Source of the DNA: Golubevia sp. BC0850
Taxonomy: Eukaryota > Basidiomycota > Exobasidiomycetes > Golubeviales > Golubeviaceae
NCBI GenBank assembly: GCA_012976225.1
Contig: JAAVVG010000020.1
Location: 310,001-374,000 of the forward strand
DNA length: 64,000 nucleotides
Reading direction: 5' to 3'
Shown here: positions 56,347 to 63,449 of the stretch, in pieces
Position numbering within the stretch: position 1 is the stretch's first letter
Layout: the number at the start of each line of letters is the position of its first letter
Notes under the pieces: model-generated
The model's input: only the letters and a program-made list of their open reading frames with translations
The model's database searches: none
What the model was told of the DNA's origin: nothing
Translations under genes and position numbers: made by a program

Positions 56347-58575
56347 ATGAATGGACCTCAGATCCAAGTGGATGTAGAAAAGAATGCTCACAGAAGCATC
56401 GATGAGACGGTACAAAGAGGGAGAACAAGACTCCCAATCGGCCTCCCTTTTCTTCCAGAAGTCCCTCCACCACCCTCAGAACCTTCAAGATGGCTCAGAT
56501 TCAAGATAGAACTTAGGAATAGAATTCTCAATACGACTCCGTCTTTCTTTGTTATCAAGTGAGTCAACAATTTCTTGGTAACTTTGTGATTAACTCAAAA
56601 CAGTGACGGCTACTAACACCTCTTCACATCGAATCACAGCATGGGAACTGGAATCACAAGTATCTTACTTCATGATTTACCATATCAGTTCAAAGGTTTG
56701 AAGATCATCTCTTACATTGTCTTTGGTCTCAATGTCGTTCTCTTCCTTTTATTCCTCGGGCTTTCCTTGTTCGTACAGTATAAGCCGCTTCGTCTTTTGG
56801 ACAGAGTTTTGGGACTCAAGCTCATATCGAAGGCAGTTTCAAGAGTTGAGATCAAACTGAAGAAGTAAATCGACTAGAAAGGATATCATGGTCAAATCTT
56901 TCCTGAAGAGACGCAACAGTCTACCCGGTCTCACACTCTCACTCATTGAATAATTTCTTCCTGCTCCTTTTCTGACTCGCAGGGCCAAGTATCTAATCTG
57001 GCCAAGAACCTTCAAAAGTCAGCTTTCTTCTCAGTCTCAAGAACCTGCTATCAGAGAAGACCTGTAACTAGGACCCCAACCTTCTAACCCCCTTCTCTCT
57101 TTCTCCCTTTCTCCAGCTATGATCGTCCATTCATCTCAATCGCTTTTCCTAGGAACCTTCTCAATGGGACTCACCACCATCATAGGAATGTGCGCTCTTG
57201 CTTGCGTTCCAGCCTGGGGTGATGGAATGATGGTCTTCACTTGGGTGCTCTGGTGGATCAATCTGGTCTTGACCCTAATCATTGCATTGGGAGTGCCTTT
57301 CGTTCAATTCACTAGACACGGAGGAGTCGAGAACTCAACGGTCACTGGTGCTTGGCTCTTACCAGCTGTCTCTCCGTTAGTCTTCGCGTCTGCTGGAGCT
57401 TTCGTAGCAAACGTTCTACCTCCTGATCGTGCAAGGTTGACTTTGACTCTGAGCTACATGTTATGGGGAACTGGGTTCCCAGTGGCTTTCATAGTGTTGA
57501 CTCTGTACTATGGTAGACTTGCAGTCCACAAACTTCCGGCGTGAGTAGATTTGAAGCGTGGTTTCATCGTCAATCATTCCGAGTTCTCCGATTTCTCATC
57601 CCCGCCTTCCATCGTCGAGTTTTCTGATTTCTCATTTTTTATCTCCACTTCAATTGATCTCTCACCCACGCCGTTCATCGTCGATCCTGCTGGTTTCTCA
57701 TTTATGCCTTTCACTCCAATTTCACAGAGCGTCAGTCATCTACACAGCTTTCATTCCAGTAGCTCCTTTAGGTCAAGGAGCTTTCGTGATTCTCAAATTG
57801 AGTCAGGTTGCGAGAGATCTGACCTACAGAACTGGAGTTCCACCTTTCGGCGGAGACAAGTTGTACAACGTAGAAACTGCTAGGATGATGGCTGATGCTG
57901 TACTCGCAGCCACCATTCCAGTGGCTCTGGTGTTATGGGGGACGGCCCTCTTCTGGTTCATCATTGCAGGAGCTGTGATTTCAGACATGGCATTGTGAGT
58001 GTTAAAGGTGGAGTCAACACTCTCTCGTGTTCGAGTTTCTGACTGCTGTTCTTTTCCTCTCTTGTCGGTTTCTCAGAGTCTCTCGAATACCCTTCTCAGT
58101 CAGTTGGTGGGCCTGTACCTTCCCCATTGGTGTGTGGGCAACGTCGTGAGTCGATACTTTTCACTAGAGTCGCATCTTGAAACCCGAATCTCACACGAAA
58201 CGCATTCTCTTCCCATCTAATAGGACAACTCAGCTTGCGAAGGAACTGGATTCGGGAGGTTTCAGAGTCGTGGGAACTATTCTTTCACTTCTCGTGACTC
58301 TGTTCTGGCTTTTACTTATACCGGTAACTCTTTTCAAGCTGGCAGATGGATCTCTATTCCTGGCTCCTGATCTTGGACAAGTAGGAGGTCAACCTCGGGT
58401 GGGACCGAGAGCCAAATCGGTCGCCACGACTCGGAAATATATCTACACTGCTTCACGCAGAAGCTTTTCTCTTAGTCCTTCACCTCTAAGAGGAAGGAGA
58501 TCTAGGAGTAGAGTTAGTGAGAAGAGCTCTCAGAGGGAACAGAGTAATGAGACGCGAGTGGTCGGTGACGACTAG
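56347..58575 (+). CDS. TDT-family exporter (SSU1 sulfite / C4-dicarboxylate type)
   Basis: Seven exons: 56347-56558, 56640-56864, 56983-57017, 57117-57540, 57728-57994, 58077-58145 and 58224-58575; 527 residues. The TDT/SLAC1 fold is indicated by about ten hydrophobic segments and by NMGTGITSILLHDLPYQF, HSSQSLFLGTFSMGL, AWLLPAVSPLVFASAGAFVA, YMLWGTGFPVAFIVL and FSVSWWACTFPIGVWA. SSU1 exports sulfite at the plasma membrane; related Mae1-type members import malate. The start GTGI(T)SIL and the WWA-TFP stretch favour the SSU1 branch, without certainty. The C-terminal 90 residues are Arg/Ser-rich and cytosolic, a possible phosphorylation tail. The third exon is 35 nt. Confidence 0.9.
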
Positions 58576-59395
58576 TGGCTTAGCAGCTCGCTTTGATATA
58601 CCTCTTGCTTTTGTTTTCTTGTTTTTCATTTTTCATTTAGTTCGTTTCGTTGTACTTCACTCTTTCTTATTTGAATTGCATTGAGATCTCATTCCTCATT
58701 TCTCCTTTCAACCATGTCTTTCAACAAAACACGAGTTCGAAGAATGTTTGGAAGAAAAATTCAAGAGCTCTTTTTCCCGCTTTCTACGTTTCTACGCTCA
58801 ACTCCTTTTGATATCCCGCTCTCACTTATTGCAGTCTTTTGGCGGTCAGACTTTCTACATGGGGCTCGAGATTTAATTGCCTTTCTTTGACAATTTTGCT
58901 CTACATATTAGAGAGAAATAATCTCCCCTTGGATCGATAGAGGTCAAATTTCACCAGCGTTACTCGAATCTCAAGACGACCCTTTACAGCCTCAATGAAA
59001 GCACGAACACCTAGGAGAGGGAGAGAGAAACAGGAAGAAGAGAGAGAGGGTTTTCGTCGAGGAGGACAGGTGGCAATCCATCTTCTTCGACTGCCAGACT
59101 TGCCATCGCTTTCTCTCCGTATCTCCTGGCTCATTTCTGAGAGTGATATAGCTTCTGACTTTAACGGAATCATGCAGGTGAAGTACACAGGATCAATTTA
59201 AAAGTGATGCTTTCCCTGATTTAGTTTCTCAATCAGCACGATCACCAACTTAGACCAATCTCACAAAGTTTGATTCGTAACTTGTTCGAGAAGAACCTAT
59301 TATGTGTGTTTACGATCGAATCGAGGCTTCAGCAAAGACGAAAGCTTACAAGAGAGTGACCTTGCTCCAAAAGACTACCAACCTAATCGAAGTCC
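58576..59395. other. Convergent 3' intergenic region
   Basis: 820 bases between the TDT exporter stop and the stop of the left secreted-peptide gene. A 95-codon minus-strand frame at 58901-59188 is open but shows no family feature. Confidence 0.3.
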
Positions 59396-60241
59396 TTAAT
59401 CAGAAAGAGAAGAGAGAAGATCGTCCTGAAAGCCACGTGACTCGATCAATTCATCGAAGAAGGCCTCGTCTGAGTTCAAGTCCTGAAGATCAGGAGTACA
59501 GAGAAAAAGAGAGAGGGAATGGAGAGAGAGGGAAGAGAAGGAAAGGTGACGTCAGCAACGAGCATCTCAGATTTGGAAAAGGTGCTGAAAGTTACTCACC
59601 CTTCCGCCAATGCCAGAGATCACCCTGCCGAGAAACTTCCAGATTCTGCCAGCGCGACCCAGAGGAGTAACTCCATAGTCTTTTCCGTTGACAATGACGC
59701 GACGTTCCAAAGAGTCTTCGTCATCCCTCTCCTCGAACAGAGAGGCGAGCAGATCCTCATCTACATCGCGAGACTCAAGAAGGGAAGCTAAGAAGGCATC
59801 CTCGTCAGAGACGTCTCGTCTGCCGTTCTGAGTTAGATGGAAAAGAGGATACCAATGGTCAGCTTCTGTGAAGAAAGACTTGACTCGCTTTAGATCAGAG
59901 CTGTTGATTGAAGATCGCCTTTTCACTGACCTTTTTTCTGTAAGCACTAGTGAGCCACTTCAAAAAGACAGCTGCAGGCTTCCTGATCGGTTTGTATTCC
60001 ATATCTTTTCCGTTGATGATGATGCGACGATCCAAAGACATCGGCTGGAACAAGGAGGAAGGCAATGGAAGAATTAGCAAGGGTGTGTCCAAAGTCTGAT
60101 CGATTCATCATCTCGACTCACCTCATTTTGGACGTCTCTTGATTGAGACTCCAAGAACAGATCATGAGAAATTGGCAAAGCAGCGGCAGAAATGAAAGTG
60201 GCCACAAAGGCCAAAGGGAGAGCTAATTTTAAGAGTTGCAT
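59396..60241 (-). CDS. Small secreted precursor with two Kex2-flanked cationic peptides
   Basis: Four exons, all phase 0: 60122-60241, 59931-60044, 59600-59827 and 59396-59482; 182 residues. The signal peptide is MQLLKLALPLAFVATFISAA. Exon 2 holds LDRR (residues 44-47) followed by a basic peptide (about net +6, with KPAAVFLKWLTSAYRKK). Exon 3 starts NGRR, then a strongly acidic spacer (residues 83-119, about net -14), then LERR (118-121) and a second basic, Gly-rich peptide containing GRAGRIWKFLGRVISGIGG. Exon 4 is an acidic tail. The core IIINGKD/VIVNGKD follows RR in both units. The acidic part also repeats: SDEDAFLASLLESRD and SDEAFFDELIESRG. Dibasic sites point to Kex2 cleavage in the Golgi and secretion of amphipathic peptides. 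No known family is recognised. Antimicrobial, repellent-like or signalling peptides are possible. Confidence 0.72.
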
Positions 60242-61237
60242 TTTGATTTTTGAAGTTGAAGTTGAGGTCGAATCAGAACCAAAAAAAAAAGTTAAAAAAG
60301 TTGAAAGGATAATTGAAATGGAGATAGTCCGGCTATCCAAAATAGAATTAGTAAGTGAAGTAGTAAAAAAAGAGGTTGGCAAAGTGAGTTCGTGGTGGTG
60401 TGGTCGTTTAAATACGTTTTCAGACAACTGAGAGAGAGAACGAGAGGGCGCAAGTGCCTGGAAGATCGACCTCCGATGCTTCAGATCTTTCATTCCAGGA
60501 GTTCACTGCTGTAACCAAGAAGGTGATCAGAGAATTTGTCGGGTTTTTTGAGGGCGGGAGAACTGAGGAGGGGGGAGGGAGATGAAAAGTAGAACGTCAA
60601 CACTTTCCGTCACTTCAAGTTCAGATAGGCGAGCTGAGAGATCGATTTCGGGGAGACGTCTTCCATATCAACTAACTGGGGAGACAAGCGCCACCTCCGT
60701 TGCCTCAGAACGGACCCTAAGAAGGGAGGCATCTGAGGAATCGTAAGATCCATTTGTGAATATCTCTTTAGGTTGAAGCGGCAGAAAATCTTGGGTCGCG
60801 AATTGTCAGATTTTCAGGGTTCTAGGTAGCATTCTCGAGCACGCCATACCCATTTATTATCTACCCAAACTTCTTCATCTATGCTTAAAAGGAAGGGCCG
60901 CAAGATTTGTACGCACCTCGGACTTTGTAGATGGCCACCCTCTCTGTCCTTTTGAAGCCTTTGATCCTATCCTCCGTCTGTCGATACCAACCAAACTTTA
61001 CTCTGATGCTGTATCATCTGAGACCTATCCCTCTGTCTCTAAAGCTCTATTTAAGAAGCATCAAACCTCCCACCTTGCTACTCTTCCCCCAACTTGACGT
61101 TCATCTCCATCTCTTCTCTCATCCTTCTTCAAACCAGTCGTAGCCGGTCTACTTCTCTTCCACTTTTACATTCTAATTTTTTCAATCTTTTCTACAAACG
61201 TTCTTTCAACCTCTCCTTGTTCGAATCTTATTTCACG
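60242..61237. promoter_or_regulatory. Divergent promoter between the two peptide genes
   Basis: 996 bases. A TATTTAA-type box lies on each side: near 60408-60417 (reading leftward, about 170 bases from the left start) and near 61048-61056 (about 185 bases before the right start). The similar boxes and spacing suggest shared control. No gene is supported inside. Confidence 0.45.
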
Positions 61238-62104
61238 ATGCAAATTCTCAAATTAGCTTTTGTTTCTGCTTTGGTCTCAGTCTTGGTCTCTGCTGCCCCA
61301 GTTCAGGTGAGTCTACGACCTCCATCCCAACAAACGGACGCTTTCCCGGTCCGAAATCCTTTGTCTGATTCCTTCCTCTGCTTCTCTTCGTCCACCTCTA
61401 ACAGCAAAGACGCGACGCTGTCACTTCCGATGCTCAAGCCCAGATTGCCAGGTCATTCGACTACGGAGTGAGTAACTTCTCACTAATCTCAACCCGAGAG
61501 AGAGAGAGACCAATCTTGGCCTTCGCTGAGCAAGAATCTGATTCACCTCTCCCTGGAATCTCTACTTCACAGACTATTCCAGAGAAACGTCTCTCCATCC
61601 CATTTTTTGCCGGTCGCGCCTTGAAAATGATTGGATGGAAGGAAGCAGAGATTGATTCCTTCTTAACTACAGATGAAGGAAAAGATTTCGTATCGAAGCT
61701 CGCCTTAGTAGAGAAAAGAGACGCAGAGGTCGAAGGAGATGAGCACGAGAAGCGTCTTGTCCCTTGGGTCGTCGGAGCTCGTGCTGGACTGGGAATCCTC
61801 AACATGGCCCAGAGAATCATCAAAAGCAACAAGGAAACCATCAACGTGAGTTCCATTTCTGGATGTTGATCTAAGATCTGAATAGTAGACGAAGCTTTGC
61901 TCAGCTTGTGTTTGCTGAGGATCTCGATCTGATCTTCTGACTCACCATCTCCGACGCTCCTACATTTCAATTCTCTCCTGCTAGGATAATTTCTATATCA
62001 GAGACCTAGTTGCCGCGTCCGAGATTCAAGCTCGCAACACCAACGTTCATGCGGATATTGACCTTTTGGGACTTCTTCATCCAGAGCTCAACATCAGCCT
62101 TTAA
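61238..62104 (+). CDS. Small secreted precursor with KR-flanked hydrophobic peptides
   Basis: Four exons, all phase 0: 61238-61306, 61405-61467, 61573-61845 and 61985-62104; 174 residues. The signal peptide MQILKLAFVSALVSVLVSAA is close to that of the divergent neighbour. Dibasic sites are QRR (24-26), PEKR (47-50), VEKR (90-93) and HEKR (102-105). After KR come an amphipathic peptide starting LSIPFFAGRALKMIGW and another starting LVPWVVGARAGLGILNMAQR. Between them is an acidic linker (DAEVEGDEHE). The last exon encodes a 39-residue tail without dibasic sites. The layout (signal, acidic spacer, KR, amphipathic segment, repeated) mirrors the neighbour, so the two look like diverged paralogues. 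No Cys residues are present, which argues against a disulfide-rich effector or hydrophobin. Function is unknown. Confidence 0.72.
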
Positions 62105-62145
62105 GCGTCGATTCGAATGCTGTGGGTAGCTTGTATTTTATTGTA

Positions 62146-63449
62146 TGAATGAAGGGCTTCACCAAACATTGAATGCCATTGAATCTTTTGAGATGTTGTT
62201 TGAGACTCGAGGTAGCGATATCAAAGCTGCGAAGATGTGAGTCAATGATCGACGCTTCACTTTCACTCGACCTTTTCATTCCATCCGACTGCCGAAGAAG
62301 GGAGGCTTTCTTCTTAAGCTCCTATATGGAATCCCTCTTCCGCTTCCGTGTCCCTTCATAGGATTACAAGCCTCGTCCTGATGCCGTTCTAGTTTCTCGA
62401 GCGCACCCCTTCCCCTGCTCCTCTCCCCCAAGACATCCCGTCTGAACCTTATTCTGTCTTTCTCATATCTCTTGTTCCTCTCTATAGAGCTCATCATGTT
62501 GGTCAAGAGAAAGATGTAAAGGTCTTCCACATCATCGCTGCTAACACGGTGGAGCAAATAGTGCTCGGCATCCAGGCAAGTGAGGAGAACTTAGTAAGGA
62601 AAGCTTTCAGAACAGAGGAGCGGCGATCGAAGAAAAAAGAAACAGACGTGAAACTAAATCAGTGTTCACACTGCAAGCGCTAGCGTCGTCGACGAGTAAG
62701 ACCCGAGTTGTTCACTTACCTCCTTTCACTTCTCCCCTTTCGTTTCCTTCAGCGCTCCTGGAGGAGAAATAGTCGAAGATCTAGTTGCTCTCTTCGAATT
62801 GGATCCAGCAAATCTTAGAAGAACATACCCTCACAACTTCATTGAATACTCCTTCTATTCTTTCCCTGGGGGGCGAGGTTCGGGAATCCCATGGAATCAT
62901 GCACGCATCTTCAATACCTGCGAGGTTTGGGAAGCCGTTTTTCTTTCTCAACAGAGTGTGAGTCTCAGGGTAAAGAATCAGAGGAGGTTAGTCATTGGAC
63001 ATCACCAACTTGGCGGCGAGAAACAAATGAGCTTCACAGCTCCTGCCATCTCAACTCAACGTCTCATTCAAGCGTCTCAACTTCTAGCAAGGACTTTAGC
63101 AGCACTTTCGGTTTTCTTGAGGGTAGATTGAGACCTGAAAACGGTTTCTTTCAGCTTGGATGAACTTCATCGAACCAGCATGGAAAGAGGCGGAGCTTCA
63201 CTTTGAAACCCGTCGCGAGTGGTCTCATCGTGTAAGATGACCTCGTTCTCAATGCTCAGCAGCATGATAAAAAAGGATGAACCTCTGTATGTATCTCAGT
63301 TTGAATTTCCAGGATCGAAGCTCAACGCCACCTAACTGCGGTGGGACAGCTGAGAGAGGGAATGTCGACTCTTTTCACAGAGAATGAGAGAAAGCAGAAC
63401 CTCGAGGTCCGACTTCCTCCCGCGCAGACTTTCTCTTTGCCAAGTTAGA
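62146..63449 (+). pseudogene. Decayed 3' part of a SNF2-type helicase gene
   Basis: Consecutive exon-like blocks read as the C-terminal half of a SNF2 ATPase. 62146-62236 has LFETRGSDIKAAK (motif V-like). From 62362 comes DYKPRPDAVLVSRAH. 62488-62579 has AHHVGQEKDVKVFHIIAANT and VEQIVLGIQA, the RAHRIGQ/TVEE motif VI region. About 62613-62700 continues as GAAIEEKRNRRETKSVFTLQ. From 62753 comes GGEIVEDLVALFELDPANL. About 62950-63120, 63173-63230 (WMNFIEPAWKEAELHFETRR) and 63314-63449 (HLTAVGQLREGMSTLF, stop at 63447-63449) complete it. The ATP-binding N-terminal half is absent. The first junction is out of phase and drops the expected VIIY, the second lacks a GT donor, and the last junction is also out of phase. 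It is therefore most likely a 5'-truncated, broken copy. The intact parent should be elsewhere in the genome. Confidence 0.6.

Follow-up and report, generated by a model that had tools for sequence, protein, structure and literature searches.

Two adjacent genes lie head to head in the 64-kb window, as we call the whole stretch of DNA that was analysed, with 996 nt separating the two ATGs. The left gene (182 aa) is on the minus strand, with exons at 60241-60122, 60044-59931, 59827-59600 and 59482-59396 (120, 114, 228 and 87 bp), and has relatives at C10, C61 and C6. The right gene (174 aa) is on the plus strand, with exons at 61238-61306, 61405-61467, 61573-61845 and 61985-62104 (69, 63, 273 and 120 bp). 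Both models were recomputed with a splice/codon script in which all phases were allowed, and the arrangement given in the first-pass annotation, two divergent neighbours with four phase-0 exons each, was recovered; all eight exon lengths are divisible by 3.

The model chosen for each gene was the third of three printed by the script. For the right gene (score 28.5 versus 29.2 and 29.0), the last exon at 61985-62104 was selected because a similar exon ends the paralogues C12:538612 and C12:551174. For the left gene (18.5 versus 19.6 and 18.6), the last exon at 59482-59396 was selected on account of a similar stretch in a relative at C2:564.6k. All three printed left models began at an upstream ATG; the start was placed at the ATG at 60241 because the relatives have the same ATG.

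Compared with the paralogue C12:551174, right exon 3 shows purifying selection (dN 0.19, dS 1.08, dN/dS 0.18), and exons 1 and 2 together gave dN 0.03, dS 0.27 and dN/dS 0.12 in the same comparison. These low ratios therefore confirm the right gene as coding, and a metagenome fragment, P0001, is 99% identical to it. The corresponding search with the left gene gave only P0004, in which this reading frame of the window is itself recorded.

Peptide features of the two precursors

KR or RR sites fall after residues 47, 82 and 121 of the left protein and after residues 26, 50, 93 and 105 of the right protein, and Cys is absent from both, as had been described for residues 47 and 121 and residues 50 and 105. 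Taken alone, the dibasic count of the right protein is modestly raised (4 versus 1.36 expected, P = 0.03), and that of the left protein is not above chance (3 versus 2.24, P = 0.4). Left exon 2 (59931..60044, minus strand) encodes DRR and then IIINGKDMEYKPIRKPAAVFLKWLTSAYRKK, a cationic module. Left exon 3 (59600..59827, minus strand) encodes NGRR, an acidic spacer (net -14), ERR and a second cationic segment; by residue, segment 48-80 carries +6 and segment 83-119 carries -14. Right exon 3 (61573..61845, plus strand) reads EKR, a hydrophobic/cationic segment and an acidic stretch, then EKR and an acidic spacer, then EKR and an amphipathic segment. Folded alone, it gave a mean pLDDT of 65.8 and was mostly helix, a quality too poor for a fold search. 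The peptide segments are cationic or glycine/alanine-rich and hydrophobic, some of them amphipathic, with acidic spacers between. The alternation of charge originally reported is thus real; the amphipathicity claimed with it is marginal (P = 0.039, 0.046 and 0.064 in three segments, 0.28 to 0.96 in the other six).

Both genes start with signal-peptide-like sequences, as do their relatives, judged by reading and a hydrophobicity script. The view that these are secreted Kex2-type peptide precursors is supported by these predicted features, and neither window protein had a Pfam match over the cut-off. By their sequence, both precursors would be expected to be cleaved by Kex2 at KR/RR. Monobasic LxxR-like sites recur in the precursors and may add Kex2 cuts; in the part of the review available, an extended Kex2 motif permits sites of this kind (PMC8528282). 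As defined in the accessible text of a survey of Kex2-processed repeat proteins (KEPs), such proteins have a signal peptide, give at least 4 fragments on KR/RR cutting and contain at least 3 similar repeats (PMC6339444). Cutting at KR/RR gives five fragments for the right protein and four for the left, the N-terminal one included, and each window gene has at most two similar segments by eye. The combination of cationic or hydrophobic segments and acidic spacers fits membrane- or surface-active peptides of the Ece1 or Rep1 kind, and by this analogy the peptides would most likely be membrane-active or surface-active.

Four of six relatives scanned likewise had no Pfam match over the cut-off. The matches in the other two (DUF413; DUF7930, MMS21_N and BESS) were rejected as signs of a known domain family, as the proteins concerned are repetitive and none of the stretches exceeds the cut-off by itself. 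Rfam gave nothing at E ≤ 1 in 59300-62300. Precursors of ustiloxin-type fungal RiPPs have modifying enzymes nearby (DUF3328 and others). Here, the ten ORFs flanking the pair matched only AhpC/TSA, alpha/beta hydrolase and SLAC1, and no modifying enzyme that would point to a RiPP cluster was found among them. The SLAC1-type anion channel gene, at 57068-58575 of the window, adjoins the pair.

A dispersed gene family

The 25.8-Mb genome holds a dispersed family, in which 52 gene starts were placed: 30 by protein similarity, two in the fetched C7 locus, three via sites of the GATAG form of the 5' element described below and 17 behind sites of its GTAG form. The 30 are not an independent set, and recent duplicates are among them; one of the 30, C2:565293, is doubtful, its signal segment being in a different frame from the ATG (L042), and C10:361k, C61:170k, C61:808k and C7:414k were left out for want of a clear start. 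For the 17, membership is a matter of reading (a signal-like start with KR/RR or family-like Arg sites and a spacer), and some gene models in the family are surely wrong in their later exons. The protein searches gave 17, 2, 13, 8 and 28 matches, overlapping and some of them weak, and a signal-peptide pattern matched at seven places, of which six are family genes, the window pair among them.

Right-type genes have one to three tandem exons similar to right exon 3, built as acidic stretch, EKR, acidic spacer, PEKR and hydrophobic/cationic helix. In left-type genes a cationic exon (DRR, IIINGK...KWL...YxKK) alternates with an acidic one (xRR, DVSDED...LLESRDVDEDL). E-K-R-L is invariant across six aligned modules and R-R across four. 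Four metagenome proteins match an exon of another member, and these relatives keep the KR sites; P0006 contains three KR-preceded copies of the exon, and P0008 matches over a short length only. The L096 precursor contains five near-perfect 31-residue repeats around MERRLLSxLPYIKWLGGKEGEVEARSQD. At L045 (C10:360830-360900), a left-type copy has its signal segment directly after a damaged-looking 5' element with no ATG seen, and looks like a decayed gene.

The signal peptides of the left and right proteins are identical at 11 of 20 positions. A second match (17/54, E = 0.008 in a two-sequence comparison) is weak and proves little, so that, on sequence comparison, the resemblance is clear only in the signal peptide. 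The term "paralogous" applied to the pair at first is therefore well founded for the signal peptide alone. The head-to-head layout, the 996-nt spacing and the similar signal peptides would suit a dedicated two-peptide system, either a two-component toxin or a pheromone pair, with a divergent promoter in common. Left-type and right-type genes are, however, scattered over many contigs, mostly without the other type alongside in the fetched stretches of about 3 kb, and clear similarity is confined to the signal peptide. We consider such a system very unlikely; the idea of a special two-component locus is not borne out, and no support was found for the two products acting together.

First exons were measured in 31 of the 34 listed genes, and every one of the 31 ends in phase 0. 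Later exons of several genes at C61, C55, C6, C7, C8 and C17 are not multiples of 3, and phase 0 throughout is therefore not a rule for the whole family. C12:538612 and C8:631878 agree in exon 1 at 71 of 75 nt and in the aligned leader at 97 of 132 positions, and the similarity score of the next 810 nt is below that of shuffles. These observations fit peptide exons having been shuffled behind a portable cassette of 5' leader, hairpin element and phase-0 signal-peptide exon.

The 5' hairpin-like element

Each window gene is preceded by a hairpin-like element with a loop of the class C[C/T]GGN: GTAG(CCGGT)CTAC at 61140..61152 (plus strand), the loop 94 nt before the right ATG, and GATAG(CCGGA)CTATC at 60323..60337 (minus strand), the loop 91 nt before the left ATG. 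The pattern TAGCYGGNCTA occurs at these two places only in the 64-kb window, each time in the sense of its gene. The two genes had been proposed to be co-regulated, and this common 5' element is a sign of it.

Of the 30 similarity-found genes, 16 have a hairpin with a CNGG loop and a stem of at least 4 bp within 160 nt upstream of the ATG, against a mean of 0.095 and a maximum of 1 in 200 rounds of dinucleotide shuffling. With at least 3 bp the count was 20 of 30 (shuffles, mean 0.455); one of the ten genes lacking such a hairpin within 160 nt has one at -164. The reverse strand gave 3/30 and 4/30 at the two stem lengths, and the next best of the 64 loop classes was found in 4/30 genes. In every one of the 22 hairpins with a stem of 3 bp or more the base before the loop is G, though the search did not require it. 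The core AGCYGGNCT occurs 20 times in sense and never in antisense orientation, in 18 genes, and three genes carry a self-palindromic tetraloop form of the element. The genes at C7:413214 and C7:415891 (L018) have AAG(CCGGT)CTT as a second copy, 17-18 nt upstream of the ATG.

Recent duplication of leader and signal exon could have spread such elements as functionless, hitch-hiking remnants, and some leaders are indeed near-identical (153/158 nt between C12:538612 and C12:551174). This explanation is very unlikely, given that elsewhere the leader sequence around the element has diverged, that precursors whose signal exons differ have the motif in front of them, and that CNGG stands out among the 64 loop classes.

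The form of the element matches the Smaug recognition element (SRE) to which Vts1/Smaug SAM domains bind, whose loop is given as CNGGN0-3, with a preferred G before it, in the accessible part of the source (PMC4053848). Both window elements have a loop of this form and the preceding G. One Vts1-like SAM domain was matched in the genome, at C2:131889-132062 (E = 4e-15, 52% identity to yeast over 58 residues); SAM matches at C6 and C1 were rejected as unlike Vts1 on reading, and a further SAM match lies at C63. In yeast, Vts1 destabilises mRNAs with SREs, and Eap1 helps decapping, according to the available text (PMC3468468). With a rough probability of 0.47, we propose that both genes encode Kex2-type precursors of an exon-shuffled family and that the 5' hairpin is an SRE bound by the Vts1-type SAM protein. 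The hairpin would act in the 5' leader of the mRNA, and the SAM protein would bind it and destabilise or repress the set until a signal releases it. Kex2, perhaps with trimming enzymes, would cut the precursors at KR/RR and possibly at LxxR-type sites, and the products would be acidic spacers and helical peptides of cationic or hydrophobic character. We infer from the sequence that the element is transcribed and bound by Vts1, and likewise the sign of that binding.

Nineteen of the 20 copies were aligned for covariation (one exact duplicate was dropped); they had been chosen by GCYGGNC, and the constancy of those letters is no evidence. The arms pair as UA, CG or AU at the fourth position and as AU, GC, UA or CG at the third. 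The covariation score was 0.336 versus 0.122 in shuffles (reached by 0 of 500) and 0.05-0.11 when the arms were slid, and 19 cells showed double changes versus 7.1 in shuffles. Two counts are inflated least by related sequences, and neither was above the shuffles: double-changed pairs (4 versus 3.1; 133/500) and pair types (10 versus 9.6; 271/500). Pairing fails at the three outer positions in 11, 5 and 6 of 18 sequences. Covariation of the arms is thus suggestive. The stems are weak, with a closing-pair probability of 0 to 0.70 in a 160-nt context and near 0 in several copies.

The element may lie in the promoter rather than in the mRNA. In the same family, it could be a DNA site through which a dimeric transcription factor activates the genes jointly, and the weak stems and the unusual 5' position make this a serious rival, one to which we give a substantial share of the probability. 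In favour of such a site, the element is nearly palindromic, its core is constant, and it lies about 54-134 nt upstream of the ATG in CT-rich sequence that resembles a promoter; the two indifferent covariation counts agree with it. The 20:0 sense orientation and the arms changing together on both sides would be unusual for it, however, and the loop and preceding G fit the SRE rule.

A genome search with GTAGCYGGHCTAC alone gave 32 sites, against one for a control pattern. Six were at loci already known; the 26 others were read as 17 family-type precursors, two other secreted proteins and seven sites with no precursor or an unclear one. KR/RR is present in 14 of the 17 new precursors (all except L090, L097 and L106), and 14 of 17 have no Cys behind residue 20. 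By an automatic test, a signal-like ATG lies 50-140 nt downstream of 18 of the 26 new sites, versus 184 of 4000 random positions (4.6%) and 102 of 3484 CT-rich positions (2.9%); the 18 include L105 and L108, not counted as family, and miss L098, which was. No clear precursor was seen at the GTAG sites L088, L094, L095, L100, L104, L108 and L112, among which L108 reads as a transporter and the non-family model at L088 has four KR/RR. The copies at L094 and L095 lie in a common, less CT-rich context, perhaps a repeat. At L105 and L107 the element precedes secreted proteins that are not Kex2-type precursors.

The search with GATAGCCGGACTATC gave four perfect matches, every one at a family gene already known, and five sites with one mismatch, four of them at family genes and only C10:159910 new; at C12:527614 (one mismatch) no family precursor was found on the side examined. 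In all, eight of nine GATAG sites with up to one mismatch precede family genes (one of two at new sites), and since seven of the eight were already known, these sites test little independently. Up to two mismatches gave 30 sites versus 19 for the control. Two of 21 two-mismatch sites were fetched, picked for their form, and both were family genes (C61:145141 and C64:304072); two further ones fall at known loci (C10:360830 and C61:321908). All three TTAGCYGGHCTAA sites are at known family genes, and its control pattern gave seven.

A wider form of the SRE proposal is that about 50 or more exon-shuffled precursors would form a fast-changing arsenal under one post-transcriptional Vts1 switch, any new peptide exon arriving behind the leader-plus-signal cassette automatically acquiring the hairpin and, through it, Vts1 control. 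We put it forward tentatively, as a possibility of a little under even odds, and the claim that the element alone suffices to find precursors missed by sequence similarity belongs to it and shares its standing.

Comparison with known systems

If the SRE proposal is true, Kex2-type precursors and Vts1/Smaug hairpins, known apart, would be joined in one regulon; the joint expression of unrelated secreted peptides would be explained, and such peptides could be found in a similarity-free way. Targets of Vts1 are of wide interest because Vts1 is reported, in the part of the paper available, to be a regulator required for disease in the rice blast fungus (PMC13224767). Among the literature matches listed, a coverage that leaves out most subscription papers, no paper was found that links Vts1/Smaug with peptides secreted by fungi or that describes the element for fungi.

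The family resembles KEPs, as these are presented in the accessible part of the survey, in its signal-peptide-like starts and KR/RR-separated peptides, and the relatives L096, L109 and P0006 have at least three repeats (PMC6339444). It differs from them in that the window genes lack three similar repeats (by eye), in being exon-shuffled and in the common 5' element. The same text counts 1193 KEPs in 226 species, whereas the 25.8 Mb analysed here would hold some 50 or more family members; the survey rules are stricter, and the comparison is not like-for-like. According to the available text of a review, 8 of 15 repeat proteins of Ustilago maydis are apparently Kex2-processed, and Rep1, with Kex2-cut repeats, gives surface-active peptides (PMC8528282). 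Ece1 of Candida albicans has a signal peptide and seven KR sites, and one membrane-damaging peptide among others, in the part of the source consulted (PMC5784256). The likeness to Rep1 and to Ece1 is one of description.

With the targets of Smaug and Vts1, as far as the accessible texts describe them, the elements have in common CNGG at the 5' end of a short loop and the preceding G, and the genome has a Vts1-type SAM domain (PMC4053848, PMC3468468). Most SREs in those texts lie within coding sequence, and others in the 3' UTR (nanos and the yeast reporter). Unlike known SREs, the elements here are usually single, at a constant position upstream of the ATG and in one kind of gene.
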